Assembly (NCBI GenBank): GCA_024398095.1
Contig: JAKSJK010000004.1
Location: 1-62,772, forward strand
Direction: 5' to 3'
DNA from: Bacteroidales bacterium
GTDB taxonomy: Bacteria > Bacteroidota > Bacteroidia > Bacteroidales > UBA932
Length of the DNA stretch: 62,772 bases
Part shown: piece by piece, positions 2,630 through 25,263 of the stretch
How positions within the stretch are numbered: position 1 is the stretch's first letter
How the letters are laid out: each line of letters opens with the position of its first letter
Program-made: the position numbers and the translations under genes
The notes under the pieces: model-generated
What the model saw: the letters and a program-made list of their open reading frames with translations, nothing else
Told to the model about the DNA's origin: nothing
Database searches by the model: none

Positions 2630-5182
2630 ATGAAGCGAATTCTAAAAACATTTGCAACTGCAATGGCGGTACTCGCCGTTGCGGCCTGCACCGACGAGGA
2701 ACTCACCCAGAGGGTTGAGAAACTCGAGTCCAGGATGGATGCCGTCGAGGCTCAGCTCAAGACCGACGCCGGCAACATCAAGACCCTCTTGGAGGCTGTG
2801 AACAACGGAGTCACCATCCAGTCTGTTACCCCTATCACGGATGGTTTCAGGGTTGTGTTCTCCAATGGCAAATCCTTCGACATCACCAACGGAGCCAAGG
2901 GTGACAAGGGTGACAAAGGCGACACCGGCGACAAGGGAGATAAAGGAAACACCGGCGACAAGGGCGACAAGGGTGACAAGGGCGATAAAGGCGACACCGG
3001 AGCCAGCCCTGTCGTTACCATCGAACAGGGTACCGACGGCAACTGGTACTGGGTCATCAACGGAGTCAACACCGGCGTGAAAGCCAATGGCGACAAGGGT
3101 GACAAGGGTGACAAAGGCGACAAAGGTGACACTGGCGACACCGGCGATAAGGGTGACAAAGGCGACACCGGCGACAAGGGCGACAAGGGCGATCAGGGTA
3201 ATCCTGGAGCTACACCTGAATTCAAGATCGAAAACGGCCATGTCTACTACTCTTTTAATGGAACAACCTGGGTGGATGCAGGCGAGCTTTCAAGCAGCAA
3301 TACCTGCCCTATCGTTGACGTAACCGTGGACGAGGAGAATGGCGTTGTGACCATCACTCTCGCTGGCGGCGCAGAGTTCGTGCTCCCTCTCGAGAAGCAG
3401 ACTTTCGCGCTCATCGTTCCAGAGCTCAACTTCGTGGTAAGCAATGGCAGCGTAAGCATCCCATATGTTCTCAGAGGCGCTTCTTCCGAAGCTATTGTCC
3501 TCGCATATTTCGTGGGCAATGTCCCTGCTGCCAGCATCGAGGTTACAGATGAGGCTGTGGAAATCACCGCTACCTCAAGCCTTGAGTCGGCAACTCTCGT
3601 GATCGAGGCCATCGACAACGCCCTCGACTCCAACAACTGTGCAAAGAAGGTCATCCGTTTCGAGGATGGCGTGTTCATGATGGAAGACAGCCAGAAGGCA
3701 TTCAGCGTTCCGGCAGAGGGTGGCACAATCACATTTGCATTCAAGTCCAATCTGGAAATCATAGTCTCTACTGCTGACTATGAGTGGATTAAGCCTGTTT
3801 CCTCAAAGGCAGTCAAAGAGTACACCGAGACCTACGAAGTCCTTGCCAATGACTCAGAATCCGCACGCGAAGGCACACTGGACATCACGGACTTCAAATA
3901 CAATGCTCTCGCAACAGTCACCGTAAGCCAGGCCGGCAAACCCGCACCTAAGTTCGCTGTAGAGGATGCAATCTCTTACTATGAGGGAAGCTTCAAGTTC
4001 GGCATGTTCAACGGCGCTTCAATGCAGGGCCCTATGACCGAAGATGGCGCAATGAAGATCGCTGCTTCAGACGACGCAAGCAAGGGCAATGTAATGTTCA
4101 CGCTCTTCAACGGCAAAGAGTGCAAGATCTACGCATCCTTTGACCTCGTTTCCGGCGAGATCACCATGGCCAGCGGCGCAACTATCTCTACCGTCTCTTA
4201 CAGCAACCGCACCCTTGACAGGGATGTTGTCTTTACCATCGACGAGGCAACCAAGTCTGTTCTTGCCTGCGCTCCGAAGACTGTCGTCTGCGGCGCAGCT
4301 CCTGGCGTTCCGATCTACTACGCAATCGACGAAATGTCCTACACCAAGGCTTCTGAGCCGCTTGCTGTCAGCGTCAGCGATTTTGTCGGCACCTACTCCG
4401 GCGGCATATCCGAGGCATTGATGATGAATGGCGCGGCAATGGGAACAAAGGACTACACAGCCGCACCTATGGATTTCGTCTTCGAGGCAGCAGACAACGG
4501 TAGCAACAATGTCGTGATGAAGGCATACTATGGCAACGCCTGCAACGTTCCTGGCGTATTCGATCCTGCGACCATGACAGCAACCTTCTCTGAGGGCTCT
4601 GTAACCGTAGTACAGGGTACCGGCAACATCGTTACACCACTCGTACTCGTGCTTGCGGCAGACTTCCAGAGCCTTACTCAGCAGGGAACCTTTGGCGTAC
4701 AGCCTTCCGGCATGCCATTCACCTGGGTTGGAACCCTTACCACGCTTACAAAGACTTCTGGCGGCAATGGCGGCGGCAGCGAGGGATTCACCCTCTCACT
4801 CGTTACCCTCAACCAGTGGGGCACCACCTACAGCGTGAACGGAGTAGCCAAGGAAGAGACCTCCGGAAGTCCGACCTCATTCTCAAAGCAGGCTGATGGA
4901 GCGATAGCAGCAACCGGTTGCAACCTCTACATGAGCAACTTCATGTGTTCTGGCTACAACACCGGCTACGCAAACTTTGACGAGCAGAACGGTACTCTTA
5001 CCATTCCTCTCGTAAAGAACAGTGGCGTTCTCTACTTCCCTGCTATCGACTGGGTGGCAAGGAATCTTACCGCTGACATTGTTCTCCAGATGTCTGACGA
5101 TCACAACACCATGGTTTCCAACAGCCCAATCACTCTCAGCGACGGAACCGTGCTTGAAAACTTCACACTCACAAAGAAATAA
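2630..5182 (+). CDS. Surface lipoprotein with coiled coil, collagen-like Gly-X-Y blocks and BACON-like domain
   Basis: This 850-residue protein has a lipoprotein signal with lipobox AVAAC (Cys20), so it should be anchored in the membrane and probably surface-exposed. Residues 22-60 form a heptad coiled coil (TQRVEKLESRMDAVEAQL). A short module containing FSNGKSFDITNG follows, as seen at the N-terminus of the PL29-lyase N-terminal family. Two collagen-like blocks lie at 88-126 (13 triplets) and 154-195 (14 triplets), mostly GDK and GDT, separated by a 27-residue spacer. A BACON-like beta domain sits near 350-440 (FSVPAEGGTITFAF), followed by two repeats of a larger beta domain. The coiled coil could trimerise the collagen stalk. 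It is monocistronic, with its own promoter and terminator. No catalytic motif was recognised, so the role is a guess: adhesion or a stalked binding protein. Confidence 0.85.
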   Translation: MKRILKTFATAMAVLAVAACTDEELTQRVEKLESRMDAVEAQLKTDAGNIKTLLEAVNNGVTIQSVTPITDGFRVVFSNGKSFDITNGAKGDKGDKGDTGDKGDKGNTGDKGDKGDKGDKGDTGASPVVTIEQGTDGNWYWVINGVNTGVKANGDKGDKGDKGDKGDTGDTGDKGDKGDTGDKGDKGDQGNPGATPEFKIENGHVYYSFNGTTWVDAGELSSSNTCPIVDVTVDEENGVVTITLAGGAEFVLPLEKQTFALIVPELNFVVSNGSVSIPYVLRGASSEAIVLAYFVGNVPAASIEVTDEAVEITATSSLESATLVIEAIDNALDSNNCAKKVIRFEDGVFMMEDSQKAFSVPAEGGTITFAFKSNLEIIVSTADYEWIKPVSSKAVKEYTETYEVLANDSESAREGTLDITDFKYNALATVTVSQAGKPAPKFAVEDAISYYEGSFKFGMFNGASMQGPMTEDGAMKIAASDDASKGNVMFTLFNGKECKIYASFDLVSGEITMASGATISTVSYSNRTLDRDVVFTIDEATKSVLACAPKTVVCGAAPGVPIYYAIDEMSYTKASEPLAVSVSDFVGTYSGGISEALMMNGAAMGTKDYTAAPMDFVFEAADNGSNNVVMKAYYGNACNVPGVFDPATMTATFSEGSVTVVQGTGNIVTPLVLVLAADFQSLTQQGTFGVQPSGMPFTWVGTLTTLTKTSGGNGGGSEGFTLSLVTLNQWGTTYSVNGVAKEETSGSPTSFSKQADGAIAATGCNLYMSNFMCSGYNTGYANFDEQNGTLTIPLVKNSGVLYFPAIDWVARNLTADIVLQMSDDHNTMVSNSPITLSDGTVLENFTLTKK
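2891..3007 (+). repeat. Collagen-like triplet block 1 (13 Gly-X-Y triplets)
   Basis: The 9-base unit GGCGACAAG and close variants are repeated in frame, giving GAK, GDK, GDK, GDT and so on to GAS. Such repeats can change copy number by slippage in steps of whole triplets without breaking the frame. Confidence 0.9.
3089..3214 (+). repeat. Collagen-like triplet block 2 (14 Gly-X-Y triplets)
   Basis: This is the same GDK/GDT type of triplet run as block 1, ending in GDQ, GNP, GAT. The near-identical DNA units of the two blocks are also candidates for recombination with each other. Confidence 0.9.
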
Positions 5183-6650: not shown

Positions 6651-9600
6651 ATGAAGAAACTGACCAGAATATTGACCTCGGCGATACTTGTGTTCTGCAT
6701 GGCACTATCGCTGCAGGCGCAGACAAAGGCCGTGCTCACGGGTACAGTCACCGACAGCGAGGGTGAACCCCTGCCGGGTGCCGCCGTACTCCTCGTGGGA
6801 ACGACCACCGGTGTCCAGGCGGATGTCAACGGACGCTATGAACTGAAGCTCCCCGCAAAAATGCCGGCCAACCCGATGATCGAGTTCAGCTACCTCGGCA
6901 TGCAGAGCCGAAAGATCGGCTATAAGGGCCAGAGCAAGCTCAATGTCAAGCTCCAGTCCGATGCCAATATCGAAGAAACCATTGTCACCGGCTACCAGAC
7001 TCTCAAGCGCCGCGATGTGGCCGGATCCCTGACCGCGCTCAAGGCGGAGGACATACTCATGCCTTCCTACACCTCCATCGACCAGATGCTGCAGGGCAGG
7101 GTGGCAGGACTCGTGGTGACCCAGAGCAGCTCCCGCGTGGGCAGTACTCCAGACCTGAAGATCCGAGGAACTTCCACCATCATGGGCAACACCGCCCCTC
7201 TCTGGGTGGTGGACGGCGTGATTCAGCCGGACCCACTCCAGCTCGACCAGTCCGCCCTCATGACAGACGACCTGGCCAACATCCTGGGCAACCAGATTTC
7301 CTGGCTCAACCCGTCCGACATTGACACGATCACCATCCTCAGGGATGCCTCCGCAACCGCAATCTACGGTTCCAAGGCCTCCAACGGAGTAATCGTGATC
7401 ACCACAAAGCAGGGCAGGCAGGGAAAGACCACGGTGAAATACACCGGCAGTATGACCGTCAGGGCACGGCCATACTACGGCATGTTCAACCTGATGAACT
7501 CCCAGGAGAGGATGCAGTTCAGCGAAGAGGTCTTCCAGGCCGGTAGTTCCTACAGAGGCACGGTTGCTCCTTACAAGCAGATGTACACCTTCGAGGGTAT
7601 CCACAGGATGTACCAGGACAAGGAACTCAGCAGAGAGGAGTACCGCGATGCATACCGCTTCCTTGAGACCGGCAATACCGACTGGTTCAAGCTACTGACC
7701 CGCAACTCCGTCAGCCAGAACCACAACATCAGCCTCTCCGGAGGCAACGAGAGGCTCGTCTACAACGCATCCATCTCCTACGGCAACAACAAAGGTATGG
7801 AGAGAGGCAATGACGCCAACAACATGAGCGCCAGGATACGCGTGGGCACGAATCTCACCCATAACACCCACCTCGATGTGTCCATCATCGGCGCCATCAA
7901 CAACACCCACGGATACGGTCCCGGTGTAAGCCCTCTTGCCTACGCCACAGCCACCAGCCGCGCCATCCCGGCCTACGACCAGGCCGGCGAACCCGTCTTC
8001 TACCGCTATCCTTCCAATTACACCTATGGCGTTCTGGGGCTCGACCTGGGCTACAACATCCTCAACGAGATGGAGAACACCTACTCCAAGTCCAAGGTCG
8101 CCAAGGTCAACGCAACCATGGACTTCTCATGGGATATAATTCCGGAACTTACCTACCAGTTCACGGGCGGCATTTCCGACGGCAACACCTATGGCGAGAC
8201 CTATGCCGGCGAAAAGAGCTACTACATAGCCAACACCTACAGGGGCTACGACTTCGGATCCAAGCTGTCCGTCGACCCTGAGTACCGCGCTGCCCTCCTG
8301 CCATACGGCGGAGAGCTCCAGACACTCAGCAAAAACGAGTTCAACTACAACTTCCAGAATAAACTCCAGTACCACCAGACCATCAGACAATACCATCGCC
8401 TCAACGCCATGCTGGGCATGGAGGTGCGCTCTACCAAGTACAAGTCAAACCAGAACACCGCATGGGGTTTCATGCCTGAAAGAGGCAACAAGCTGGCCCA
8501 GGCCACCGTACCGAGCGACTTCCAGTCGATGAACACCAGTTCACTGCCTCCGTTCGGACTCTTCCAGAACATCTACCGCAACGCCTGGTCATACCATGCC
8601 AGCGACGACAACTTCATGTCTGTCTTTGCGACCTTCTCATACAGCTACGCGAACAGATATGTCCTCAACGCCAGCATCCGAAACGACATGTCCAACCGCT
8701 TCGGACAGGATGTGAACAAGCGCTTCGACCCTATGTACTCGTTTGCGGGCTCATGGGATGTAACCCAGGAACCCTGGCTCAAGGGCAAGGCCTGGTGGCT
8801 TGACCAGCTTCGCTTCAGGGCCTCCTACGGTATCCAGGGCAACGCCATCCAGAGCATCAGCCCGGATCTGATCGTGGCCCACCAAGGCATCATTTCGAAA
8901 TACAACCAGCCCGGTGTGTCCATCCGCAGCCTGCCGAATCCTAACCTCTCATGGGAGAGCACCCGGTCATGGAACGTAGGTATCGACCTCCAACTCCTCA
9001 AGTGGGTCACCTTCACGGCAGAGGGCTACTCCAGGTCTTCAGACGCCATCGTCTACCAGCAGATCGGACGCGAGTACGGCCTCTCCACCATGGCTCTCAA
9101 CGGCGGCCGTGTGACCAACAGCGGCCTCGAGTTCACCCTCAACATCACTCCTATCCAGAAAAAGGACATTGTCTGGACCATCGGTATGAATATGTCCAAC
9201 AACTGGAACTCGGCGCAGGACGTGGACTCCAAGCTCGACCAGGTGTCCGACTACCTCTTCGGCTCGTCCGGCAGGGTGCTCAAGATCGGCTATCCTGTGT
9301 CCGGCTTCTGGTCATATTCATTCGCAGGCCTGGATCCGAAAACGGGCTATCCGACCTTCAACAACATGGATAAGAACACCACTGACCCGACTGAGTTCCT
9401 GGTTTACAGCGGCCAGAGGGATGCCTCCTTCACCAGCGGCTTCAATACCAGGCTCAGGCTCTGGGACTTCACCCTCGGAGCGGACTTCACCGCCCTGCTC
9501 GGTGCTGCAAAGCGTCTTGTGAATCCATTCACCACCGAAGACCGACTGCCTCAGCCGTATGTGAACCTGAACAGGCAGCTCCTCAAGAGGTGGAAGAAGC

Positions 9601-9941
9601 CGGGCGACGAGGCCACGACCACAATCCCGGCCTTCTACAGCGGCGGAGCCTCATCCTACCAGAGACTGCCGAACGGCATGCAGGAAAGCATCTACACCAT
9701 GTGGGGAATGTCTGATCTGCGCGTCGTGAACTCATCCTTCTTCAGGTGTACCCAGATTTCCCTGACCTGGAACGCACCTAAGAAAGTCACCCAGGCAATG
9801 AGGATTTCAGACCTGATGGTCAGTGCCAATCTCGGAAATGTCTTCGTAATCGCCAGCAAGGCCTTCGACGGCTTTGATCCGGAGCTCGGAGACAGCGTGA
9901 TGCCGAGAGTCTTCTCACTCGGTCTGAATGTCGGATTCTAA
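6651..9941 (+). CDS. SusC/RagA-type TonB-linked outer-membrane transporter
   Basis: At 1096 residues it is typical for SusC. The signal peptide ends near LSLQAQ. A carboxypeptidase-regulatory-like domain spans about residues 25-105 (GTVTDSEGEPLPGAAVLL), followed by a TonB-box-like segment (EETIVTGYQ). The plug domain is at about 115-235 (DQMLQGRVAGLVV, IRGTSTIMG, PLWVVDGVIQ, GSKASNGVIVITTKQG). A long barrel ends in GLNVGF with C-terminal Phe. It should form the energised pore beneath the SusD lid encoded next. The zinc-peptidase genes downstream suggest peptides or protein fragments as cargo rather than glycans, and no glycoside hydrolase or sugar gene is nearby. The cargo is inference. Confidence 0.95.
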   Translation: MKKLTRILTSAILVFCMALSLQAQTKAVLTGTVTDSEGEPLPGAAVLLVGTTTGVQADVNGRYELKLPAKMPANPMIEFSYLGMQSRKIGYKGQSKLNVKLQSDANIEETIVTGYQTLKRRDVAGSLTALKAEDILMPSYTSIDQMLQGRVAGLVVTQSSSRVGSTPDLKIRGTSTIMGNTAPLWVVDGVIQPDPLQLDQSALMTDDLANILGNQISWLNPSDIDTITILRDASATAIYGSKASNGVIVITTKQGRQGKTTVKYTGSMTVRARPYYGMFNLMNSQERMQFSEEVFQAGSSYRGTVAPYKQMYTFEGIHRMYQDKELSREEYRDAYRFLETGNTDWFKLLTRNSVSQNHNISLSGGNERLVYNASISYGNNKGMERGNDANNMSARIRVGTNLTHNTHLDVSIIGAINNTHGYGPGVSPLAYATATSRAIPAYDQAGEPVFYRYPSNYTYGVLGLDLGYNILNEMENTYSKSKVAKVNATMDFSWDIIPELTYQFTGGISDGNTYGETYAGEKSYYIANTYRGYDFGSKLSVDPEYRAALLPYGGELQTLSKNEFNYNFQNKLQYHQTIRQYHRLNAMLGMEVRSTKYKSNQNTAWGFMPERGNKLAQATVPSDFQSMNTSSLPPFGLFQNIYRNAWSYHASDDNFMSVFATFSYSYANRYVLNASIRNDMSNRFGQDVNKRFDPMYSFAGSWDVTQEPWLKGKAWWLDQLRFRASYGIQGNAIQSISPDLIVAHQGIISKYNQPGVSIRSLPNPNLSWESTRSWNVGIDLQLLKWVTFTAEGYSRSSDAIVYQQIGREYGLSTMALNGGRVTNSGLEFTLNITPIQKKDIVWTIGMNMSNNWNSAQDVDSKLDQVSDYLFGSSGRVLKIGYPVSGFWSYSFAGLDPKTGYPTFNNMDKNTTDPTEFLVYSGQRDASFTSGFNTRLRLWDFTLGADFTALLGAAKRLVNPFTTEDRLPQPYVNLNRQLLKRWKKPGDEATTTIPAFYSGGASSYQRLPNGMQESIYTMWGMSDLRVVNSSFFRCTQISLTWNAPKKVTQAMRISDLMVSANLGNVFVIASKAFDGFDPELGDSVMPRVFSLGLNVGF

Positions 9942-9955
9942 AACAGGAAATGACG

Positions 9956-11512
9956 ATGAAAAAGACAATATATATAATCGTATCCGGCCTTGCAGCCCTG
10001 CTCTGCAGCTCTTCCTGCGGCAAGTTCCTCGAACCGAAGTCCGAGAATGAATTCGTGCCGCGCACCGTCGAAAGCCTCGACGAAGTGCTCCTCTACGAAA
10101 CCTACCGCGGCAGCAAGTCCTTCAGCACCATACCGTTCTTCACCCTGATCTCCGACGATGCGTCTGTGGCACCGTTCAAGAGCTCCGAGAAGGACCTCCT
10201 TTCTTCAGTCCACCTCTCCTCGATAAAGGCCATCTACACCTGGCAGCCGGACATGTACTACACCCTCGACGCAGACCACGTGTCTTCCAACACCTACGAC
10301 ATGTATTCCGGCGGATACGCCCGCATCCTGGGCTGCAACGCAGTACTCGACTACCTCCATAGCGTGGACGGGAAACCGGAGAAGAAAACCCGGCTCGAAG
10401 CAGAAGCCAGGGCGCTGAGGGCATACTGGTACTTCTACCTTGTGAATATCTACGGCATCCCTTACGGCACAAACCCGGACGGTCTCGGAGTCCCTCTCCA
10501 CCTCACCGCCACCGTTTCCGGATCCACCATAGAGCGCAACACCGTGAGAGAAGTCTACGAACAGGTACTCGCAGACCTGCTGGCAGCAGAGACGCTTTTC
10601 GAAAGCCTGCCTAGGGAAAGCCAGTGGAACAGGGACACAAGGGTCAGCCTGCCGTTCGTACAGCTGCTGCTCTCCCGCGTCTACCTCTACATGGAGGACT
10701 GGGAGAACGCCCTCCTCTATGCCGACAAGGTTATCAGCGACGGGCGCTTCAGGCTGCTCAACAGGGGCGACTTCCCTGTCGGATCCAACATAGACATGCA
10801 CAACTATTCCTGCCCGGAGGTCATCTGGCCTTACGGATATATAGCCGAGTTCACAGAGTACGAAAACCCGTACATGATGGTCTACTCCCTCGGTGGCAGG
10901 GTTGCCTTTGTGACCGCATCATCCGACCTCTTCTACCTCTACAGCGCAGACGACATCCGCAGGAGCCAGTATCTGGTGCAGGACGAAAGGTCCGAAAACA
11001 AGCGCGCCTACGGCAAGATAGCCCTCAAGAAGAACAGTGCGGACCCGGAGTCCAACAACACCTTCGCAAGAAGTTTCCGTCTCAGCGAGGCCTACCTGAA
11101 CAAGGCTGAGGCTCAGGCAGAACTCTTCCGCAGCACCGGTGACGACAAGTACAAGACCGCCGCCGTGGAAACCATCGGCATACTCCGCCAGAACCGCATC
11201 GAAAATCCGGGAAACGAGCAGAACAGCATCCAGATCGACACCCGCTCTGCAGACCGCCTTGTGAACTCCATCCGCAACGAAAGGCGCCGCGAACTCTGCT
11301 TCGAGGACCACAGATGGTTCGACCTCAGGCGCTACGGAATGCCACGAATCACCCACATCTGGTACGACGGCGACGACAAGGCCAAGTATTCGGCCTATGC
11401 CCTCGATGTGGAGGACTGCCAGTACACTCTCCCAATCCCGCCTGCCGTGATGCTGCTCAACAGCGCACTCGTCCAGAACCCACTCGCACCTAAAAGGAAC
11501 AGTCTCTTATGA
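9956..11512 (+). CDS. SusD/RagB-family surface lipoprotein
   Basis: The ATG at 9956 gives a compact lipoprotein signal (MKKTIYIIVSGLAALLCSSSC, Cys21); an ATG two codons upstream at 9950 is equally open. SusD hallmarks are the N-terminal FLEPKSENEF, the helical TPR-like body with ARALRAYWYFYLVNIYG, the LSEAYLNKAEAQAELF segment, and the C-terminal RNERRRELCFEDHRWFDLRRYG. The protein is the substrate-capturing lid of the SusC pore. It follows SusC by 14 bases, and its stop overlaps the start of the next gene (ATGA), so translation is probably coupled. Confidence 0.93.
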   Translation: MKKTIYIIVSGLAALLCSSSCGKFLEPKSENEFVPRTVESLDEVLLYETYRGSKSFSTIPFFTLISDDASVAPFKSSEKDLLSSVHLSSIKAIYTWQPDMYYTLDADHVSSNTYDMYSGGYARILGCNAVLDYLHSVDGKPEKKTRLEAEARALRAYWYFYLVNIYGIPYGTNPDGLGVPLHLTATVSGSTIERNTVREVYEQVLADLLAAETLFESLPRESQWNRDTRVSLPFVQLLLSRVYLYMEDWENALLYADKVISDGRFRLLNRGDFPVGSNIDMHNYSCPEVIWPYGYIAEFTEYENPYMMVYSLGGRVAFVTASSDLFYLYSADDIRRSQYLVQDERSENKRAYGKIALKKNSADPESNNTFARSFRLSEAYLNKAEAQAELFRSTGDDKYKTAAVETIGILRQNRIENPGNEQNSIQIDTRSADRLVNSIRNERRRELCFEDHRWFDLRRYGMPRITHIWYDGDDKAKYSAYALDVEDCQYTLPIPPAVMLLNSALVQNPLAPKRNSLL

Positions 11513-12420
11513 TGAAAAGAATAGGTAAATATATACTCGGCGCCGTGGCTCTCCTGCTTGCCGCATCCTGCTACAAAGAGGCCCCGATCGTGCCTTCCGA
11601 CCTCGCCGACAAACTCTATTTCGACTTCCCGCAGGGAAATGCCGCCCACGACCGCGACATCCAGCAGCTCCAGGAACAGTACGGAGTCTATATAATCTAC
11701 AAGGACATCCCGGTGTCCATGCTCAACCGCGCCTGGGTGAATGTCTATATCGGCTCCTACATCGATGCAGACCCGGTTCCCGAGACCCTCGTGCCTTGGT
11801 ATGTAGACTTCGTGAAAAGAGGCATATTCAAGTACTTCGATGCAGACAAGTTCGCACCATACTTCCCGAGATATTTCTTCCTGGTGTCCAACATGCACAT
11901 GGTACTCGACGGCGTGGCAAAGGGACATATGGCCACCAAGGTGGACGGCGTGGACTTCTGGGCCCTCAGCTTCCAGACCACGGAGACCGGCTCCCTCTAC
12001 CTGCCTGACGAGCATCTCGCCAGGATCTGCTTCGCCTACAGACTGGTCGAAAACCTGCTGCAGGCCGGCCAGATCGAGATTCCTTCGAAATTCTACGACG
12101 GCATAGACTACAACGAGATTGTCTATGACGACATCAACAACCCGAACAAGCTGAGTTCGAAATACCACTATCAGACCAGGGGCTTTGTGAAATATGTCCA
12201 GCCGGGTTTCGAGTATGACAGCCCTCTTACCAACATCAAGCTCGCGGCTGCCAAGAACGAGGATTTCCTTATGTATGTCAGGAAGATTCTCTACTCCCCT
12301 ACCGCCGAGTTCGTGGCCGAGAATGGCAGCTACCCTCTCGTGATGCAGCGCTACAATATTGTACTCGAGCTCTTCAACGGGCTTGGAATAAACCTTGCAG
12401 ATATCTCCGACGGCAAATAG
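11509..12420 (+). CDS. Metallohydrolase-like lipoprotein lacking the HExxH site
   Basis: This 303-residue lipoprotein (lipobox LAASC, Cys21) sits just after SusD. The zinc-metallohydrolase lipoprotein of the facing operon (22815-23690) sits in the same place. By eye the two share a scaffold: an early YGVYIIYKD segment, a helix where the other has HHEFAHILHQ, then GFV with downstream DFL/DFV helices, and a C-terminal helix ending in LGIN. At the active-site helix this protein reads FAYRLVENLLQ (about 175-185), so the His-Glu-x-x-His set is replaced by Tyr-Arg-x-x-Glu, and no HExxH exists elsewhere. I infer a non-catalytic relative kept as a binding subunit. The alignment is manual and the homology is moderately certain. 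Confidence 0.7.
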   Translation: MMKRIGKYILGAVALLLAASCYKEAPIVPSDLADKLYFDFPQGNAAHDRDIQQLQEQYGVYIIYKDIPVSMLNRAWVNVYIGSYIDADPVPETLVPWYVDFVKRGIFKYFDADKFAPYFPRYFFLVSNMHMVLDGVAKGHMATKVDGVDFWALSFQTTETGSLYLPDEHLARICFAYRLVENLLQAGQIEIPSKFYDGIDYNEIVYDDINNPNKLSSKYHYQTRGFVKYVQPGFEYDSPLTNIKLAAAKNEDFLMYVRKILYSPTAEFVAENGSYPLVMQRYNIVLELFNGLGINLADISDGK

Positions 12421-12427
12421 AATCCAG

Positions 12428-14767
12428 ATGAAGAAACTCCTATCCATATTGCTGGCTGTACTGTGCGTGGCAATGCCCGCAGACGCCGGCAGCAAAAAGA
12501 AAAAGAAGGAACAGACTCCGCCACCACCGGCTCCGACCCAGTATCAGAGCGTAACCGCGGGCTGCGAACAGGCGAAGGGACTTTTCAACCTCTTCCTCAA
12601 GGACGGGCGTCTGCTCGTAGAGGTGCCTATGTCCGTAATGGACAAGGACCTGCTGGTCGCATCCGTGATTTCCGGCGTGACCGACAATGCCTTTGCCAAC
12701 CCGGGAGAAATGCCTCGCAAGCCTATGCAGGCCTTCTTCAGGATGGAAAACGGCAAGCTCGCCCTCTGCCGCCACCGCTTTGACCTTGAGTCCGGCGACG
12801 GCAACATCGCCCGCAGCATCAGCCTCAACACAATGAGGACCATCTTGCAGGTCTTCGATGTGAAAGCCTGGTCTGACGACCGTTCCTCTGTCGTGGTGGA
12901 TATGACCGAGTTCTTCGCAGGCAACAACGGAGAGCTCAGTCCGTTTGGCCAAAGCAACCCATCCGGTCTCGTGGTAAGGGAGATGTTCAAACGCGACCTG
13001 TCATATGTGAGCGCAATCAAGTCCTTCGAGGACAATGCCAGTGTCAGGTCCGTTCTTTCATATTCAGTCTCTGCGACCACCGCAGCCAAGAAACCGACCC
13101 GTTTCGCAGACACCCCGTTCACCGTGGAGGTGACCAGGACCATCATGCTTCTGCCCGAGCAGCAGCTGCCTCTGCGCACCTATGACCCGAGAGTGGGCGT
13201 GTTCCACTTCGCCAAGACCAGCTTCGCCAACGACAACGCCTGGGCACGCAATGTAAGCTACGCCCAGAGATGGAGGCTGGAACCGGGTAAACCTCTCGTT
13301 TTCTACATTGATCCGAACTTCCCGGAATCTTGGAAACCTTATGTGAAGAAGGGAGTGGAAGCCTGGCAGAAAGCCTTCGATGCAATCGGGCTGGAGAACG
13401 CTATCGTAGCCCGCGACTTCCCGGAGGACGACCCGGACTTCGACCCTGACAATCTCAAATACAACTGCGTACGCTACTCTGCGTCCACTTCGGTGAACGC
13501 GATGGGGCCAATGTGGTTCGACCCTCGCAGCGGCGAGATTCTCGCGGCAAATGTGTCTATTAACCACAATGTGATCCGCATGATCCAGCAGTGGCGCTTT
13601 GTCCAGACAGCGGCGGCAGACCCGAGAGTCCGCTCCCAGGTGCTGCCGGAAGAGGTCCTCGGTGAAAGCCTGGCATATGTGGTCTCCCATGAGATCGGCC
13701 ACAGCCTGGGACTTATGCACAATATGGCGGCATCTTCGGGCATTCCGGTCGAGTCTCTCAGGGATCCCGGATTCACAGCGGAAACCGGTACCACCTATTC
13801 TATCATGGACTACGCCCGCTATAACTATGTGGCTCAGCCGGGCGACTTCGAAAAAGGCGTGAAACTCTGCCCTCCTTCCGTAGGCCTATACGACATCTAC
13901 GCCATCGGATGGCTTTATTCGGACAAGTCTGAAGATGAGCTCAAGGAACTGATAGACAGCCGCTCCGGCGACCTGCGCTACCGTTACGGAGCCCAGCAGC
14001 TCCAGGGTGTGGTGGACCCTAGCGCCATCGACGAGGATCTCGGTGACGACCCTGTCGCAGCGGCCGCATACGGCATTTCGAACCTTAAATATATTGCCGA
14101 ACATATCGGCGGGTGGTGCGGCCCATGGGACAGCGACTGCAGCTTCCGCAGGGGCGTTACCCAGGAAATGCTCACCCAGTATCAGAGATATATCAGTGCC
14201 TGCCTCTACAACGTGGGCGGCAGGTATCTGAATGCACATCTGGGCGCGGACAGGTGGGTTGCTTCCGAACCGGTGCCGTATGAGCGTCAGAAGGCCTCAG
14301 TAGCCTTCATACTCGCCCAGGCTCCCGACCAGGAGTGGCTGGACCTCCCTCAGATGAAGGAGGGCAGAGCCAGACAGGACGATCTCGGTCCGGCACTCTC
14401 GGTGTCTGTCGTAAAGGCCCTCATGCAGCGGTTCTCACAGCTTCCCGTATCCGGTGAAGGCGCCTATACAAAGTCTGAATTCCTTTCAGACCTCTTTGAG
14501 AGCGCTTTCGCAAAAACACGCAAAGGTACGAAACTCGACCAGGTCGAGATGGACATCCAGCTGCAGCTGGTGAACTTCCTCATCGGCGGGGCGGGACTCG
14601 ATGCCACCCGCGCCATCACTGACGACAACGGCTCAGTCCACTGCTGCTACACGGCCCTCATGAACTGCCGCACCCTCGTTAGCGCCAAGGCAAAAACCGG
14701 AGACGAGAACACCAGGAACCATTATTCCCTCCTCCTCTACAAGATAGACAAGAGCACCCGCAAGTAA
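12428..14767 (+). CDS. Secreted metzincin-type zinc protease (DUF5117/DUF4953-like), apparently active
   Basis: The ATG at 12428 gives a signal peptide (MKKLLSILLAVLCVAMPADA); an in-frame ATG at 12395 overlaps the upstream gene and is less likely. The mature protein is about 760 residues. It has an N-terminal domain and then the family's central metalloprotease domain. The zinc motif HEIGHSLGLMH is at residues 421-431 (HExxHxxGxxH), with a Met-turn-like SIMDY about 35 residues later. All three zinc histidines and the catalytic Glu are present. No lipobox follows the signal, so the protein is periplasmic or exported. The next gene is a relative without the motif, 2 bases downstream. Substrate unknown; a protease feeding the adjacent SusCD importer is the simplest reading. 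Confidence 0.88.
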   Translation: MKKLLSILLAVLCVAMPADAGSKKKKKEQTPPPPAPTQYQSVTAGCEQAKGLFNLFLKDGRLLVEVPMSVMDKDLLVASVISGVTDNAFANPGEMPRKPMQAFFRMENGKLALCRHRFDLESGDGNIARSISLNTMRTILQVFDVKAWSDDRSSVVVDMTEFFAGNNGELSPFGQSNPSGLVVREMFKRDLSYVSAIKSFEDNASVRSVLSYSVSATTAAKKPTRFADTPFTVEVTRTIMLLPEQQLPLRTYDPRVGVFHFAKTSFANDNAWARNVSYAQRWRLEPGKPLVFYIDPNFPESWKPYVKKGVEAWQKAFDAIGLENAIVARDFPEDDPDFDPDNLKYNCVRYSASTSVNAMGPMWFDPRSGEILAANVSINHNVIRMIQQWRFVQTAAADPRVRSQVLPEEVLGESLAYVVSHEIGHSLGLMHNMAASSGIPVESLRDPGFTAETGTTYSIMDYARYNYVAQPGDFEKGVKLCPPSVGLYDIYAIGWLYSDKSEDELKELIDSRSGDLRYRYGAQQLQGVVDPSAIDEDLGDDPVAAAAYGISNLKYIAEHIGGWCGPWDSDCSFRRGVTQEMLTQYQRYISACLYNVGGRYLNAHLGADRWVASEPVPYERQKASVAFILAQAPDQEWLDLPQMKEGRARQDDLGPALSVSVVKALMQRFSQLPVSGEGAYTKSEFLSDLFESAFAKTRKGTKLDQVEMDIQLQLVNFLIGGAGLDATRAITDDNGSVHCCYTALMNCRTLVSAKAKTGDENTRNHYSLLLYKIDKSTRK

Positions 14768-14769
14768 AA

Positions 14770-16671
14770 ATGTCCCACCTGCTCACATACCTCCTGGCGC
14801 TCACCATCGCATTTGACCCTTCCGGCAAAGCCACGGTAGAGATACCGGACTCGCTGATGGGCCGCAAGCTCTGCATGGCCAGCCGCATCGTGGAGATCTC
14901 CGATCCGGGCGAGGCTGTCGTGGGCCAGTTCTCGGAGAACTGCGTCTGCGTGTCCTTCCGCAGGAATGGGGAATACGTGGAAATGGAGCAGCTGGTGCCG
15001 TTCATGTTCGGCAAGCCGGAAGCCGGGGTCTCGAGGCGCTTCCGCCCACTGGCAAATTCGGGATCGTCCGTCAAGTTGGATCTGACGGACTTCTTCCTGA
15101 GCGAATATCCTGGCCTCAACAGCTATCCTGTGACGGCCTATAACTCGTCTGGCGGTACAGTGATGCGTACCCACAACCCGGTTCGCGATAAATGCCGCAT
15201 CGAGTCCAGCTTCACCCAAGATGGTCTCTGTGGCGTTGTCTGCGACATGAGCTACAAGATGGACGGCCACCTCTACGGCATGTTCAAGATCGAAGGTGAA
15301 TTCGTACTGCGCGCCCGCATCGCCCGCTTCTTCTTCCTGGCTGACGGACAGGGATATGAGCCGGTTCCTGCTAACGACAGCATCGGCGCCAAGAAGATAG
15401 AACTTGTGGGCGAAGCGCTACCAGACAGACCGATATCCCCAAAAGAGATATTCTGTCACAGAGATCTCTCCAACGGCATCTGCTACCACATCGACACTCT
15501 GATGCCGCCGGCTTGGGTCAAGGGCATACGCGAGGCTGCAGAAATCTGGAACGACGGCTTCGAAAAGATCGGACTCGGACGGCCTCTGGACTGCTGTATG
15601 TCGGGCAAAGACGACGGTATGCTCTCAAATTCCATAGTATATGTACCGAGCGGCATGGACAATTTTGAGTGCACGATGCTGACAGACCCTCTGGACGGAA
15701 GGATATATGCCTCGTCTATCATACTTCACAGCTCCTACATCAGCCGTCTCTGCGACCAGTACATGGTCCAGGCAGCGGTGGCCGACAGAAGGGCCCGGGC
15801 AGCGCATCTGCCAGACGAGGTGGTCTCCGAAGTGGTGCGCACTGCTGCTCTGCAGGCCATTGGACGCTCACTCGGGCTCACAGACAATCTCAGAGCCTCT
15901 TTCTCCTGCAGCGTCGACAACCTGCTCGACAAGGACTTTACCAACCGGCACGGCGTGAATCAGACTGTGATGGAGGCCCCGGTTTTCAACTACCTGGCCT
16001 CTGAAAAAGAATACGGCGAAGGCGTGGCGATCTGCCAGAGCGTTCTTTCCCCATATGACCTGGCGGCTTTGTCGATGCTTTACGGCGGCAGCCCGGTCGA
16101 GAACGAAGGTATCGGCTACTCCCTGGGCCGCGACGGGCAGAACCGCTTCATCCCTATGGCAGTCAAGGGCGATCTCTCAAATGACCCGGCCAAGGCCGTC
16201 ATGCTGCTTGCCCGGCGCCAGGCGGAACTGATCGCACATCTGGACGAGTGGTTCCCAGATCAGGAGATGGCAAAGAAGATAGGCAACGAGTCCCGCGGTT
16301 CCTACGCCCGCATGCTGGTGCGTCTGACCGACTTCCTGACAGCGGATTGGGAAGAAGGTCCGAGTCACGACGAGGTGGTCAAGACCGTCATCGCCAGCCT
16401 CCGCGACCTAGACTGGATGCAAGACGAAGATGCGGCTGCGATGTACAGACGAAATGTTTTCCGTCAGCTTTGCCAGGTTGCATTCAAGGCCGGGATTCTG
16501 GGCAAGGCCTACGATTGCCTCAGACCGGACGAACACGAATGGAAGGACTTTGTGGTCACGAGGCTCGCCTCTATGGCTGCGAACGACGCCGAAGCCTACG
16601 CCACGCTGGTACGCATACGCAAGACCAGCAAGGACGCATATATAAACAATAGAATAGATCTGCTGTTATGA
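14770..16671 (+). CDS. Metzincin-like protein with all zinc ligands replaced
   Basis: This 633-residue protein is co-linear with the upstream metzincin (shared landmarks DP-GKATVEIPDSLMG, the MGPM/VYVPSGM region, SLGL-N). It is translated from 2 bases after that gene's stop. Where the active protein has HEIGHSLGLMHN, this one reads QAIGRSLGLTDN (residues 362-373). His to Gln, Glu to Ala, His to Arg and His to Asp remove every zinc ligand and the general base, while the surrounding I-G-x-S-L-G-L frame is kept. The N-terminus is a weak signal peptide (MSHLLTYLLALTIA). The reading frame is intact and long, so it is not decaying. I infer a structural, inhibitory or substrate-binding partner of the active copy. 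Confidence 0.75.
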   Translation: MSHLLTYLLALTIAFDPSGKATVEIPDSLMGRKLCMASRIVEISDPGEAVVGQFSENCVCVSFRRNGEYVEMEQLVPFMFGKPEAGVSRRFRPLANSGSSVKLDLTDFFLSEYPGLNSYPVTAYNSSGGTVMRTHNPVRDKCRIESSFTQDGLCGVVCDMSYKMDGHLYGMFKIEGEFVLRARIARFFFLADGQGYEPVPANDSIGAKKIELVGEALPDRPISPKEIFCHRDLSNGICYHIDTLMPPAWVKGIREAAEIWNDGFEKIGLGRPLDCCMSGKDDGMLSNSIVYVPSGMDNFECTMLTDPLDGRIYASSIILHSSYISRLCDQYMVQAAVADRRARAAHLPDEVVSEVVRTAALQAIGRSLGLTDNLRASFSCSVDNLLDKDFTNRHGVNQTVMEAPVFNYLASEKEYGEGVAICQSVLSPYDLAALSMLYGGSPVENEGIGYSLGRDGQNRFIPMAVKGDLSNDPAKAVMLLARRQAELIAHLDEWFPDQEMAKKIGNESRGSYARMLVRLTDFLTADWEEGPSHDEVVKTVIASLRDLDWMQDEDAAAMYRRNVFRQLCQVAFKAGILGKAYDCLRPDEHEWKDFVVTRLASMAANDAEAYATLVRIRKTSKDAYINNRIDLLL

Positions 16672-18500
16672 GAAACAGATACTTCATACTGCTGCTGTCG
16701 CTGATGTGGGCCGTATCCGCCTGCAAACCGGTCGTTCCGGTGGATGAGGACGAGGTGAGCTTCGATCTTAGTGAAGTCTCCATCTCCGCAGACGCCGGCA
16801 AAGCTACCGCCAGACTTACTGCCAGCGGTCCCTGGAAGGTCACACAGAGCCCGGAATGGCTGGGATATGTGAAGCCGGAAAGCGGTGCTGCCGGTGTACA
16901 CGAACTAACCTTCGGCGGACGGTTCTACGATGGTTCGACTGCCCGCAACGGAGAGGTAAAAGTGGTCTGTGGCGTGGCGGAGGCCATAATTGCGGTAAAG
17001 CAGAATCCGCATATGGCTTTCTCCGTTTCTCCGGAAAAGATAGAGGACTTCCCGGCAGAGGGAGGCGTTGCGAAACTCTCCGTCAGCTGCAGCTTCAAGC
17101 CACAGTGTGATTGCCCGGACTGGATTACCGCCAAGGTCGGTACCCCTGTGGGAGGCACTTATGAGATTAGCCTCAACATCACTGCGAACTCCGGCGAGGA
17201 AAGGACTGCGACGCTTAGAATCCACGATGGGGACAGTTTTGAAAGCTTCGTCACGGTAAGCCAGCAGGTCAACGGATTCGTAGGCGAAAAACGCGCGCTT
17301 ACGGATCTCTACCGGAACACTGCCGGCGCTTCCTGGACCAAGTCCGACAACTGGTGCTCCGACAAGCCTGTCTCATCCTGGCATGGCGTGAGCGTGGATG
17401 CCCAGGGTCATGTAAGCAGCCTCGATCTGAGCAACAACAATCTAAAAGGCAGCCTTCCTGCTTCGATGCCGGACCTGCGATACCTGAAGGAACTCTATCT
17501 TTATGGCAACTGCCTGAGCGGAAGCCTCCCTGCCGGAATGAGGCTGATGCCCGGATGGGCTGGGTTCGCCCCAGCAAAGCACATCTACCCGCAGCAGAAC
17601 GGCTATGCCCTTAGCAGCGGCGACTCTGAAGTAGCACAGTACAGGCGCGCCACCCAAGGCCCTGGCATTGATATAGTAATTCTGGGCGATGCCTTCGACA
17701 AGAACGGACTGGAACTGGGAAAAGGCTTTGACGCCCTCGTTGAGAAGGCGATCGCCGCCATTTTCGCAGTAGAACCGATGAAAAGCTGTGGCGACTATTT
17801 CAATGTATATGCTATCAGCGCCGAATCGGCGGCCTCCGAGATCAGCACCAAGGCCGAAAACACTGCTTTCGGTACCTACTTTACCTCTTCGGACTTTACT
17901 GTCGTAACCATGAACACCAATTGGGAGAAGGTCTTCCAGTGGGTGGGCAAGGCTCCGGTCAAAGACATAAGAAACAGCATGGTGGTGCTCCTGGCCAACA
18001 CCCAGAGGTTCGGAGGCACAACCCTCAGCTGGGATGACGGCAGACGCCTGTCCATAGTCCCGGACTTTCAGGGTGCCGCATCCAGCACCGAGGCCCAGTA
18101 CGGATTCGCAGGGCTCGTCCAGCATGAGGCTGTGGGCCACGCCTTCGGTCTCTTCGACGAGGAGTACCACACCAACGGACTCACCGCACCGACAAGTTTC
18201 GCAGCAGACCTCGCAGTGAAGCAGTCTAAAGGTTTTTCTCTGAACATTTCCGCATCGTCAGATCTCAGCAAAGCGCCGTGGAGCGCGCTTGCCGCCAGCG
18301 GGGCATATCCGTCCGTCGGAGTCTTCGAGGGCGCCGGAAACTACAGTTATGGGGCCTACAGGAGCGAAAAGGACTGCTGCATGGTCGACAACCGTCCGTA
18401 TTTCAGCGCCTGGTGCCGCTATCTCCTCTGGAAAAGGATCAGAACCCTCGCCTCGGAAGACAGCTCAACCGAGGCCTTCGTCAGATTTGAAAATAAATAA
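16668..18500 (+). CDS. M64-type zinc peptidase lipoprotein with BACON and LRR segments
   Basis: The start overlaps the previous stop (ATGA). The lipoprotein signal ends at Cys19 (WAVSAC). Two BACON domains cover about residues 30-205, each with the W-K/W-I and VxVKQN/VTVSQQ pattern. A plant-type leucine-rich segment covers about 207-292 (ALTDLYRNTAGASW, then SLDLSNNNLKGSLP). The catalytic domain runs from about 325 and has HEAVGHAFGLFDEEY at 486-500. This resembles the M64 (IgA peptidase) zinc motif HExxHxxGxxxDE but has one extra residue between Glu and the second His. I recall such a spacing in Bacteroidetes M64 proteins but could not check. The protein is probably surface-exposed, with BACON and LRR parts gripping the target. 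Confidence 0.85.
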   Translation: MRNRYFILLLSLMWAVSACKPVVPVDEDEVSFDLSEVSISADAGKATARLTASGPWKVTQSPEWLGYVKPESGAAGVHELTFGGRFYDGSTARNGEVKVVCGVAEAIIAVKQNPHMAFSVSPEKIEDFPAEGGVAKLSVSCSFKPQCDCPDWITAKVGTPVGGTYEISLNITANSGEERTATLRIHDGDSFESFVTVSQQVNGFVGEKRALTDLYRNTAGASWTKSDNWCSDKPVSSWHGVSVDAQGHVSSLDLSNNNLKGSLPASMPDLRYLKELYLYGNCLSGSLPAGMRLMPGWAGFAPAKHIYPQQNGYALSSGDSEVAQYRRATQGPGIDIVILGDAFDKNGLELGKGFDALVEKAIAAIFAVEPMKSCGDYFNVYAISAESAASEISTKAENTAFGTYFTSSDFTVVTMNTNWEKVFQWVGKAPVKDIRNSMVVLLANTQRFGGTTLSWDDGRRLSIVPDFQGAASSTEAQYGFAGLVQHEAVGHAFGLFDEEYHTNGLTAPTSFAADLAVKQSKGFSLNISASSDLSKAPWSALAASGAYPSVGVFEGAGNYSYGAYRSEKDCCMVDNRPYFSAWCRYLLWKRIRTLASEDSSTEAFVRFENK

Positions 18501-22814: not shown

Positions 22815-23690
22815 TTATAAGGCGTTATCAAGTCCGAGCATTCCGAGTTCGGAGCTTCTTCTCTCGATTATGGTACGGAGCTTATCCAGGTCTATGTGCC
22901 AGGTGGCAAGCATGTAGTTCTTGCAGATGGCTATCTTCTTTTCTATTATTGGACGTCCCTTCTCTCCCGCTGCAGTCAGCAGTTTCTCCCACTCTTCCTG
23001 GGTGGAAGTCACATAGGTAGAGATCACCTCCACGAAGTCCTCGTTTGGCTCCTTGCTGGAGTATGCCGTCACAAAACCCTGCTCCAGATACTCCAGATTG
23101 TAGATCCAGGAATCCTGTACATAGAACTTTCCGGAAAGATCCTTGTACTCCACCGGATAATTCTTGGTCTGGTGCAGGATATGGGCAAACTCGTGATGGA
23201 TAGTGTGGAAGTAATAGTTGTTGAGCAGCTGCACATTGCTTATATCCACATCGTTGACCATGTAGAGCGTGATCTTCAGACCTCCTTCGGCTGTACCCAG
23301 CATGATGGTGCCGTTGGAATTGTAGGCGGCACTGCCCACCAGGTGGAACATCTTCGGGAAGTACTGGCAGATGAAATCCTTGCCACCGGTCACCTCGTCA
23401 TATGCCTCCAGGCAAAGGTGCTTGACTATTCTGGCCATCTGCGTGGACTTCGTGTAGTCCGCCGGAGAAAGCGTGTAGGAAATATCGGCCTCGATATCCT
23501 GCATCTTGTAGAGGAAGCGGATATTGTACGGGATCACATAGTTGGTGTAGAGCCACTCGTCGAAGCTGTTCTTCACGCTGGTGTCCTCTGTGATCACAGA
23601 CTTGTCCGGATCCAGGGCATCGCTGTTGCAGGCTGCAGCAAGCAGGCTTGCCAGCATCACTATGACTATATGAAAGTTTCGAGTCTTCAT
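22815..23690 (-). CDS. SusCD-associated zinc metallohydrolase lipoprotein with intact HExxH
   Basis: The ATG at 23690 gives a lipoprotein signal (lipobox LAAAC, Cys21) and leaves a 1-base gap to SusD; a longer frame to 23732 runs into SusD. In this 291-residue protein the motif HEFAH is at 166-170, preceded by another His. EDFVEV near residue 220 could give the third zinc ligand. This matches the substrate-import-associated zinc metallohydrolase lipoproteins usually found beside SusCD. It probably acts at the cell surface on peptides or proteins entering the pore. The facing operon has a counterpart at the same position (11509-12420) that lacks the motif. Confidence 0.87.
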   Translation of the reverse strand: MKTRNFHIVIVMLASLLAAACNSDALDPDKSVITEDTSVKNSFDEWLYTNYVIPYNIRFLYKMQDIEADISYTLSPADYTKSTQMARIVKHLCLEAYDEVTGGKDFICQYFPKMFHLVGSAAYNSNGTIMLGTAEGGLKITLYMVNDVDISNVQLLNNYYFHTIHHEFAHILHQTKNYPVEYKDLSGKFYVQDSWIYNLEYLEQGFVTAYSSKEPNEDFVEVISTYVTSTQEEWEKLLTAAGEKGRPIIEKKIAICKNYMLATWHIDLDKLRTIIERRSSELGMLGLDNAL

Positions 23691-23691
23691 C

Positions 23692-25263
23692 TTAGTTACG
23701 CGGATTTGGCTGGAGACCGGCAGCAACCACATCCTGAGGGATCTGGATGGCCCTTCTCGGGTCGTTGTAATCGAGTTCTGCCTCTACCTTCACGAACTGG
23801 CCGTTCTTGTCCACGAGCCTTCTGTAGAGCTTGATGCCGTAGCGGCCTGTGTCGAACCACCTCATGCCGTCATGCACGAAGTTGATCCTGCGGCACTGCA
23901 GCACACACTGTATCGCATTGAACATCTCCCCACTCTCTACCTTGAAGCCCTGAGGGTGGAGCTGTCTGTTGCCCTGGGTGTTATAGATAGGATCGTAGTC
24001 ACCGCAGCTGCTGTAGTACCATTCCACAGAAGGTGCGTTGATGGCGTTCGCATAGGTCCTGAACTTGCCGCTCTGCCAGAGGAAGAGGTCCTTCAAGCCG
24101 GTGTCTATCCTGCCCTTGAGTATCCTTGCCTCTGCCCTGTTCAGCAGCACCTCTTCGCCCGTTATGAGCGGGAAGACGCTTCTCGGATAGCCGATTCCGG
24201 CCACTGCGTCGGAGTACTGGAACATGTACGGATACTTAGGCACGCAGACGAAGGAATAGGTGGAGGTGTTGAACTTATAGAGTGTCAGCTTGTAGGAGAA
24301 ATCCTTGTCGTAGACCAGTCCCCACGGTCCCTGATGCTCGCAGACTTCCTTGTCGGTGAGGGAGGTCAGGGAGAAGCGCTTGCTGGTGGCGTAAGGACCG
24401 AAGATGACTCCCGTGAGGCTGTAGCCGGTGGCCAGCAGCAGGTTCGCCTTGAGGTTGGCGTCCACATAGTCGAGGGAGTAGACATCGAGGTCGAGGGTCT
24501 TGTCCGCAGTCGCCGCCCAATTGTGGAAGAAGACTGTCGGATCAGCTCCCAGCACCATGTCGGCATACTCTATCACCTTGTCCCAATCCTGGTAGAAGAG
24601 ATAGAACCTGGTGGCAAAACCGAGGGCAGACTCGCGTGTGAAATGGTACTTCGGCACATTGTAGTTGTCGCCCATGAGCGGGAGTGCGGCCTGGATGTCG
24701 GCGTCGATGAGGGCGTAGGTCTCGGCCAACGTACCTCTGTCATACTTCGGATTAAGTTCAGTCTCCGGCTTGAGTATATAAGGTATACCCAGTTCCCTGT
24801 CTGCTGTCTGAGGGTTATATGGCATACAGAATATGGTCGCCAGAGTGAAGTGGCAGAAGGCCCTGACCATGAGAGCTTCGCCACGGTACTGGTCCATATC
24901 CTCGCCGGCTTCCAGTTCGTCCATGGACACGAGCGCCTGGTTTGCAGCGGCGATGGCAGCGTAGTTGGCTTCCCACACATTCTTCGGGTTGTCGTACATC
25001 TCGCTCTCGGTGTCGTCCTGCCAGAGGCCGTACTGGTTGGTGTATCTCTGTCCGTAGATATTATCCTCGCCCAGGTAGTCATCACAGTTGTCGGACATCA
25101 TCTCGGTAAACACATTCGGATGGAAGTCCGGATAGGCTGTGACGAGCAGCTGGGCCACATTTTCCTTGTGCTCCAGCTCCGCCCTGCTGTCCGGAAGTTC
25201 ATCCAGGAAGTTGCAGGAAACCGCGGCCGCAATCACGGCGAATATCATAAGGTACTTCTTCAT
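23692..25263 (-). CDS. SusD/RagB-family surface lipoprotein
   Basis: This 523-residue protein has a lipobox at Cys17 (VIAAAVSC). It shows the usual SusD features: the CNFLDELPDSRAELEH start, ALMVRAFCHFTLATIFC in the helical core, EEVLLNRAEARILKG, and the C-terminal QCRRINFVHDGMRWFDTGRYGI. It is the lid and substrate-binding partner of the SusC encoded 2 bases upstream, and the metallohydrolase gene follows 1 base after it. Confidence 0.93.
   Translation of the reverse strand: MKKYLMIFAVIAAAVSCNFLDELPDSRAELEHKENVAQLLVTAYPDFHPNVFTEMMSDNCDDYLGEDNIYGQRYTNQYGLWQDDTESEMYDNPKNVWEANYAAIAAANQALVSMDELEAGEDMDQYRGEALMVRAFCHFTLATIFCMPYNPQTADRELGIPYILKPETELNPKYDRGTLAETYALIDADIQAALPLMGDNYNVPKYHFTRESALGFATRFYLFYQDWDKVIEYADMVLGADPTVFFHNWAATADKTLDLDVYSLDYVDANLKANLLLATGYSLTGVIFGPYATSKRFSLTSLTDKEVCEHQGPWGLVYDKDFSYKLTLYKFNTSTYSFVCVPKYPYMFQYSDAVAGIGYPRSVFPLITGEEVLLNRAEARILKGRIDTGLKDLFLWQSGKFRTYANAINAPSVEWYYSSCGDYDPIYNTQGNRQLHPQGFKVESGEMFNAIQCVLQCRRINFVHDGMRWFDTGRYGIKLYRRLVDKNGQFVKVEAELDYNDPRRAIQIPQDVVAAGLQPNPRN

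Follow-up and report, generated by a model that had tools for sequence, protein, structure and literature searches.

A 62,772-nucleotide stretch of contig JAKSJK010000004.1 from a gut Bacteroidales bacterium (assembly GCA_024398095.1; hereafter the window) carries on its + strand two adjacent genes for related proteins. The first, P1 (12428..14767), is by sequence an intact HExxHxxGxxH metzincin predicted to be an active peptidase, and the second, P2 (14770..16671), is a pseudoprotease, a P1 relative without zinc ligands. The pair is conserved in many related bacteria, a sign that P1 and P2 may work as one machine. At a probability of about 0.5, we read P1 and P2 as two subunits of one heteromeric peptidase that serves a SusCD operon. 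The basis for this reading is the homology, predicted fold, ligand loss, pairing, gene order, co-inheritance, purifying selection, and gene neighborhood described below, from which we infer the physical complex, its stoichiometry, its location, and its substrate.

An Intact Metzincin and Its Degenerate Neighbor

P1 (779 amino acids) has a hydrophobic N-terminus and the domains DUF5118, DUF5117, and DUF4953 (PF17162, PF17148, and PF16313). It carries both metzincin hallmarks, the zinc motif HEIGHSLGLMH (13688..13720 on the + strand, residues 421-431) and a Met-turn, SIMDYARYNY. The ATG of P2 (633 amino acids) is at 14770 and the stop of P1 at 14767, leaving a gap of 2 bases. At the aligned place P2 reads QAIGRSLGLTD (15853..15885 on the + strand, residues 362-372) and thus lacks the HExxHxxGxxH of an active metzincin, while the Met of its Met-turn is present (TVMEAPVFNY). 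A previous inspection of the letters alone (the sequence-only reading) had given the same coordinates, spacing, and motifs, and had noted the loss of all three His and the catalytic Glu; all of this was reproduced, with the motifs starting at residue 421 of 779 and 362 of 633 and none of the four key residues left in P2. The closest P2 relative found, at a locus numbered L054, is 74% identical, aligns over 633/633 codons with zero indels, and carries the identical QAIGRSLGLTD, so the degenerate motif is not a chance feature of the window.

BLASTP aligned P1 with P2 at 24% identity over 536 columns (E 6e-26), with the two motifs paired ungapped, and a profile-profile comparison of 13 inactive with 58 active proteins aligned 807 columns (E 6e-181). 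Judged by these alignments, P1 and P2 are homologous across most of their length. In Pfam scans P1 scored 258.5 bits for DUF4953 and also passed the cut-offs of DUF5117 and DUF5118. P2 scored 75.7 bits for DUF4953 against a curated cut-off of 24.2, with no DUF5117 match and DUF5118 at E 0.025 only. The sequence-only reading spoke of "DUF5117-type" genes; in P2 the metzincin part (DUF4953) alone passes a Pfam cut-off.

The predicted structures of P1 and P2 are both confident and both match the MMP/karilysin fold. The metzincin part of the P1 model spans residues 256-501 (13193..13930, + strand), and the catalytic domain of the P2 model is likewise a structural match to the metzincin fold. The active-site helix covers residues 408-426 in the P1 model and 349-367 in that of P2, where the degenerate motif starts on it. 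Non-homology across the catalytic domain, one of two observations that the sequence-only reading had said would count against it, was not seen: the two models have the metzincin fold in common and correspond to each other element by element.

Recurrence of the Pair

Relatives of P2, active or not, occur in 94/199 genomes of the window's family. In 20 retrieved regions active and inactive copies were repeatedly adjacent, and 3 regions had two active copies. A scan of named genomes gave 79 loci from the best 80 of 130 stretches. With repeats removed, 120 of 131 loci were left, holding 141 active genes, 61 inactive genes, and 3 intermediates in which HExxH is kept and the third His changed. Writing A for active, I for inactive, P for intermediate, and ? 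for a fragment, the 120 loci comprise 56 A-I, 42 A, 9 A-A, 5 A-A-A, 2 I-A, 2 A-P-A, and one each of I-A-I-A, P, A?, and A?I. Every one of the 61 inactive copies adjoins an active one, 58 lying behind it and 3 lying only in front of one; the median gap between the 57 A-I neighbors is 8 nucleotides, and 54 of these gaps fall within -20 to 35. In a census that covered 24 chosen genomes, PF16313-type genes (61 active, 20 inactive) gave the same result, with all 20 inactive genes beside an active one (18 A-I, 2 I-A) and no solitary inactive gene. Such a survey of adjacent genes was proposed in the sequence-only reading, and its outcome in both sets favors that reading.

Pairs were found in Bacteroidales, Sphingobacteriales, Flavobacteriales, and Balneolota records, with hosts that include, by record title, Rikenellaceae/Alistipes, Butyricimonas, Sanguibacteroides, Bacteroides faecis, Cryptobacteroides, Pedobacter, a Flavobacteriaceae, and Fodinibius (Balneolota). 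An assembly error is unlikely, since isolates of several genera show the same pattern (among them Bacteroides faecis MAJ27, Butyricimonas synergistica DSM 23225, Pedobacter insulae DSM 18684, and Fodinibius roseus DSM 21986). In the window's phylum, 204/395 genomes have PF16313 at E <=0.001, 199 of them above the cut-off; 3/14 control genomes from elsewhere have it too.

Some loci depart from the common arrangement. The order is reversed at L048:3871-9019 and L144:2-4185, where the inactive or partly degenerate copy comes first (HEVGRCLGLEI, QEMGSVLGLLH). Active-inactive pairs also occur in a distant part of the family (L179, L200, and L202; SKLGKILGMKE, REIGRMLGLK), and a SusC-like gene lies upstream in the three regions that match them (L220-L222).

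Duplication History and Matching Partner Trees

In a tree of 170 proteins, from which the motif columns were excluded, most pairs have their first gene in a single clade (48 rows, all active, support 96) and their second gene in its sister group (45 inactive and 3 active, support 94; drawn open). With FastTree and 245 sequences, the first-gene clade grew to 63 rows (support 89), of which 62 are in tandem pairs, one is beside a frame-broken inactive copy, and none is solitary. A careful 80-row tree cannot be explained with fewer than 4 changes of state. Here the Chitinophagaceae second copies that are active (L078, L114, L122) fall together with those of L129/L130 and L100, which are inactive (100/100; inner fork 97/92), and the first-gene partners at these loci branch nearly alike. 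The few second copies with a zinc motif left (these three and L070) carry it in the usual place. This topology points to an old tandem duplication in which both copies were active at first and the zinc site was later lost in the second. If the site was never regained, separate losses would have occurred in L100, in L129/L130, and in the Bacteroidales lines; L179, L200/L202, and L048/L144 are further cases elsewhere in the family. The both-active pair L147/L194 sits near L048 in the tree. Between the pairs of L129 and L130 (Pedobacter insulae and a Flavobacteriaceae genome), identity is 86% for the active and 82% for the inactive protein, which suggests operon transfer between orders.

Distances among active proteins track those among their inactive partners (r = 0.85 over 42 pairs, against a maximum of 0.21 in 2000 permutations), and 24/39 splits are common to the two partner trees. 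With the gene in the slot upstream of the pair as a control (32 loci), the active-inactive correlation of 0.81 exceeded both the active-slot (0.66) and inactive-slot (0.72) values, leaving a partial correlation of 0.65.

Selection on the Inactive Copies

Purifying selection clearly acts on the inactive copies, though with weaker constraint than on their partners: in relatives, the ratio of nonsynonymous to synonymous substitution rates (dN/dS) was 0.05-0.29 for inactive copies (computable in 7/9) and 0.03-0.11 for active ones (8/9). Between P2 and its L054 orthologue, synonymous sites are saturated. The sequence-only reading took the intact 633-codon frame as a sign of selection for a non-catalytic role and called for dN/dS on the inactive copy; recurrence, conserved pairing, and these purifying values support it.

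Residue conservation was scored in the 45 inactive second copies. H421 is kept in 1, E422 in 12, H425 in 3, and H431 in 0, and 30/45 have none of the four, while N432 and G428 are kept in all 45. The Met of the Met-turn is present in 30/45 and the Tyr after it in 4/45. The active set has 131 positions conserved at 95%; the inactive copies keep 50 of these at >=80%, and the motif and the Tyr following the Met-turn are among those lost. P361, W389, and P483 are kept in none; M359-P361 and W389, lost in inactive copies, probably line the cleft, and P483 is also taken as a cleft residue. No new His or Cys is conserved at >=80%, so that a zinc site elsewhere in the fold, the second observation named as contrary by the sequence-only reading, was not seen in these copies. 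The 18 conserved Asp/Glu are the commonest residue at their positions in active copies too.

A Proposed Heteromeric Peptidase and Its Alternatives

Under the model that we favor, tandem duplication of an ancestor would have produced two active metzincin-type proteases of the DUF5117/DUF4953 family, encoded in one operon and acting together. The second copy would have lost its zinc site in several lineages, with the fold and presumably the interface with the first copy kept. P1 would then be the only catalytic center and P2 a non-catalytic subunit that may stabilize P1, or shape and gate the substrate cleft, in the manner of an M16B alpha subunit. Coupled to the SusC/SusD importer, the pair would probably trim imported or surface-held peptides. 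A heterodimer whose ancestor had two active subunits accounts for the two-way pairing, the gene order, the tight spacing, and the matching trees, as well as for the fold kept with ligands lost and the survival of both-active pairs. From the roles listed in the sequence-only reading (heterodimer partner, chaperone, inhibitor, receptor) we prefer that of heterodimer partner. More tentatively, and with somewhat less than even confidence, we extend this to a widespread group of obligate heterodimeric metzincins, wired to SusCD peptide uptake, in which one twin's zinc site was lost independently in several lineages, always beside an active twin, in convergence with M16B/MPP on an unrelated fold.

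Several observations weigh against the heterodimer. In the census, 39/61 active genes are solitary, so the family fold needs no pseudo-subunit, and SusC-like genes are also found near solitary members (9/20 loci). No fused P1-P2 protein appeared among the matches listed (longest open frame 1228 amino acids), with no dedicated search made. Distances of the slot gene also correlate with those of the pair, and shared operon history arises whether or not the products touch; the neighbor control lessens this concern and does not remove it. P2-type proteins evolve faster (mean tree distance 2.70 vs 1.46 for the P1-type), and the dN/dS of inactive copies is ~1.4-2.8 times that of the active partner, which fits a subunit and also a looser binding role.

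In one alternative, P2 would be a peptide- or protein-binding SusCD subunit, with its dead cleft or its N-terminal domains capturing substrate or docking to the upstream lipoprotein and no direct binding to P1. SusC and PKD_2 or BACON genes do flank many pairs (a SusC-like gene is upstream in 17/20 pair loci, 15 co-oriented and 2 divergent), pseudo-active sites of metallopeptidases are known to bind peptides and proteins (PMC11266112), and distances of the inactive protein correlate with those of the slot gene as well (0.72). However, a binding subunit does not predict the active paralogue seen beside every inactive copy, nor an active-inactive correlation above both slot-gene correlations, and the presumed cleft residues P361, W389, and P483 are gone from all 45 second copies. 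We consider this role unlikely.

Also improbable is that P2 regulates P1 as a dedicated chaperone or inhibitor, akin to a pro-domain acting in trans, that keeps P1 folded or silent up to the end of export or assembly. The active-first order, tight spacing, and one-to-one pairing would suit a transient partner equally, and residues of the P2 catalytic face are free to vary. P2-type proteins are, however, full-length and multi-domain, and most have their own hydrophobic N-terminus; in a simple pattern scan of A-I loci, one without a lipobox-like pattern was found in 51/54 active and 49/54 inactive proteins, and 4/54 inactive proteins had one with the pattern. We read the N-termini without a lipobox as signals for Sec export into the periplasm or further out, and the periplasm as the probable location of P1 and P2. 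The 50 family-conserved positions kept in the second copies seem beyond an inhibitor's needs, and the ancestral both-active pairs implied by the tree are hard to square with an enzyme plus its inhibitor.

There is very little to recommend P2 as an enzyme with a different metal site or chemistry, given that its motif retains none of the four key residues and that the second copies show neither a conserved His/Cys nor conserved Asp/Glu foreign to active copies. In its favor, the three intermediates (L061, L103, L107) retain HExxH and have another residue for the third His, which in two of them is Asp, as in the HEXXHXXGXXD of Asp-zincins (PMC3890501). The two with Asp are the middle genes of Butyricimonas A-P-A triplets (L103:2482-5025, HEMGHVLGLDD; L107:2497-5025, HEMGHALGLQD).

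A decaying duplicate is rejected on the intact frame, the identical motif in the indel-free orthologue, dN/dS, and a pair spread over four groups of records, although inactive copies evolve faster and one, in an uncultured Bacteroides (L099:8422-11053), is split into two overlapping frames.

Operon and Gene Neighborhood

Upstream of P1 and on the same strand lie genes for a SusC-like TonB-dependent transporter (6651..9941, +), a SusD-like lipoprotein (9950..11512, +), and, in the slot directly before P1, another lipoprotein (11509..12420, +). This slot holds a PKD_2 protein in 33/46 scanned relatives, and the window has a different lipoprotein there. None of its orthologues in L054, L055, and L077 (48-70% identity) shows HExxH when aligned. 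A profile built from the lipoprotein and these three matches L079:1854-2993, itself a weak match to TIGR04549 (LP_HExxH_w_tonB; E 6.5e-4, below the cut-off). A second, convergent SusCD operon of the window (SusC, 25266-28637, -; SusD, 23692-25263, -) has in the equivalent slot (22815-23732, -) an intact member with HEFAH. The slot lipoprotein of the first operon may perhaps be a second degenerate peptidase, of the LP_HExxH/Peptidase_Mx1 kind.

Downstream, the gene for a BACON-LRR-M64 peptidase-like protein (16668..18500, +) shares 4 bases with the end of P2; the protein has HEAVGHAFGLFDEEY, and its sequence is related to those of the solved chains 4df9_A (E 9.5e-10) and 3p1v_A (E 1.9e-9). Ahead of the first SusCD operon, 2630-5182 (+) encodes DUF4988, collagen-like repeats, and a weak BACON match.

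Comparison With Known Systems

Pfam describes PF16313 merely as "Met-zincin". In openly licensed literature, no description was found of an inactive DUF4953-type paralogue or pairing under the names DUF4953, DUF5117, or DUF5118, nor of an active and an inactive metzincin paired in a SusCD operon, in keeping with the sequence-only reading, which knew of none. Karilysin and MMPs align over ~150 residues, of 633 in P2 and 779 in P1; they are active enzymes and lack the large N- and C-terminal parts that P1 and P2 have.

Degenerate metzincin motifs occur in inactive ADAMs, M12 pseudopeptidases such as ADAM11 (QTLGQNLGMMWN) and unc-71 (QSIGHLLGLEHD), according to passages in PMC11266112. They are very like QAIGRSLGLTDN, with the Gly/Leu scaffold and typically the Met-turn kept, but they are animal membrane proteins with further domains, and those passages describe no co-encoded active twin. 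The pairing itself has its nearest counterpart in M16B, as outlined in PMC11266112 and PMC12731061. In the mitochondrial processing peptidase (MPP, alpha/beta), the alpha subunit has no zinc motif, helps form the active center, and is essential (PMC11266112), and prokaryotic M16B homologues are encoded by two-gene operons, among them SPH2681/SPH2682, TTHA1264/TTHA1265, and AlbF/AlbE (PMC11266112, PMC12731061). Like P1 and P2, these are homologous subunits, one with the zinc motif and one without, as stated for MPP, and the window has one hallmark of an active/pseudo-subunit pair by mechanism, adjacent homologous genes, one active and one not, conserved as a unit. The M16 motif, however, is HXXEH on another fold; P1 has HEXXH (HEXXHXXGXXH in full) at the aligned place in a metzincin fold and P2 has neither there, so P1/P2 may be said to work like M16B and not to be M16B. 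M16 heterodimers are also known from structures, in what these sources report, whereas the P1/P2 complex is deduced; and unlike M16B, pairs of the P1/P2 type sit mostly in SusC/SusD neighborhoods and survive in both-active tandem form.

The principle is thus known, from M16B heterodimers and degenerate ADAM motifs, and the literature covered suggests that its metzincin form has gone undescribed. If the heterodimer is real, it would assign a function to domains of unknown function found in about half of the sampled phylum genomes and would bear on protein uptake by these bacteria, many of them from guts by record title. The series of both active, one dying, and one dead would test the change from homodimer to heterodimer and why a dead twin persists. 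Pseudo-subunits in metalloprotease dimers, best known from the M16 fold, would then have arisen likewise on a second, unrelated one.

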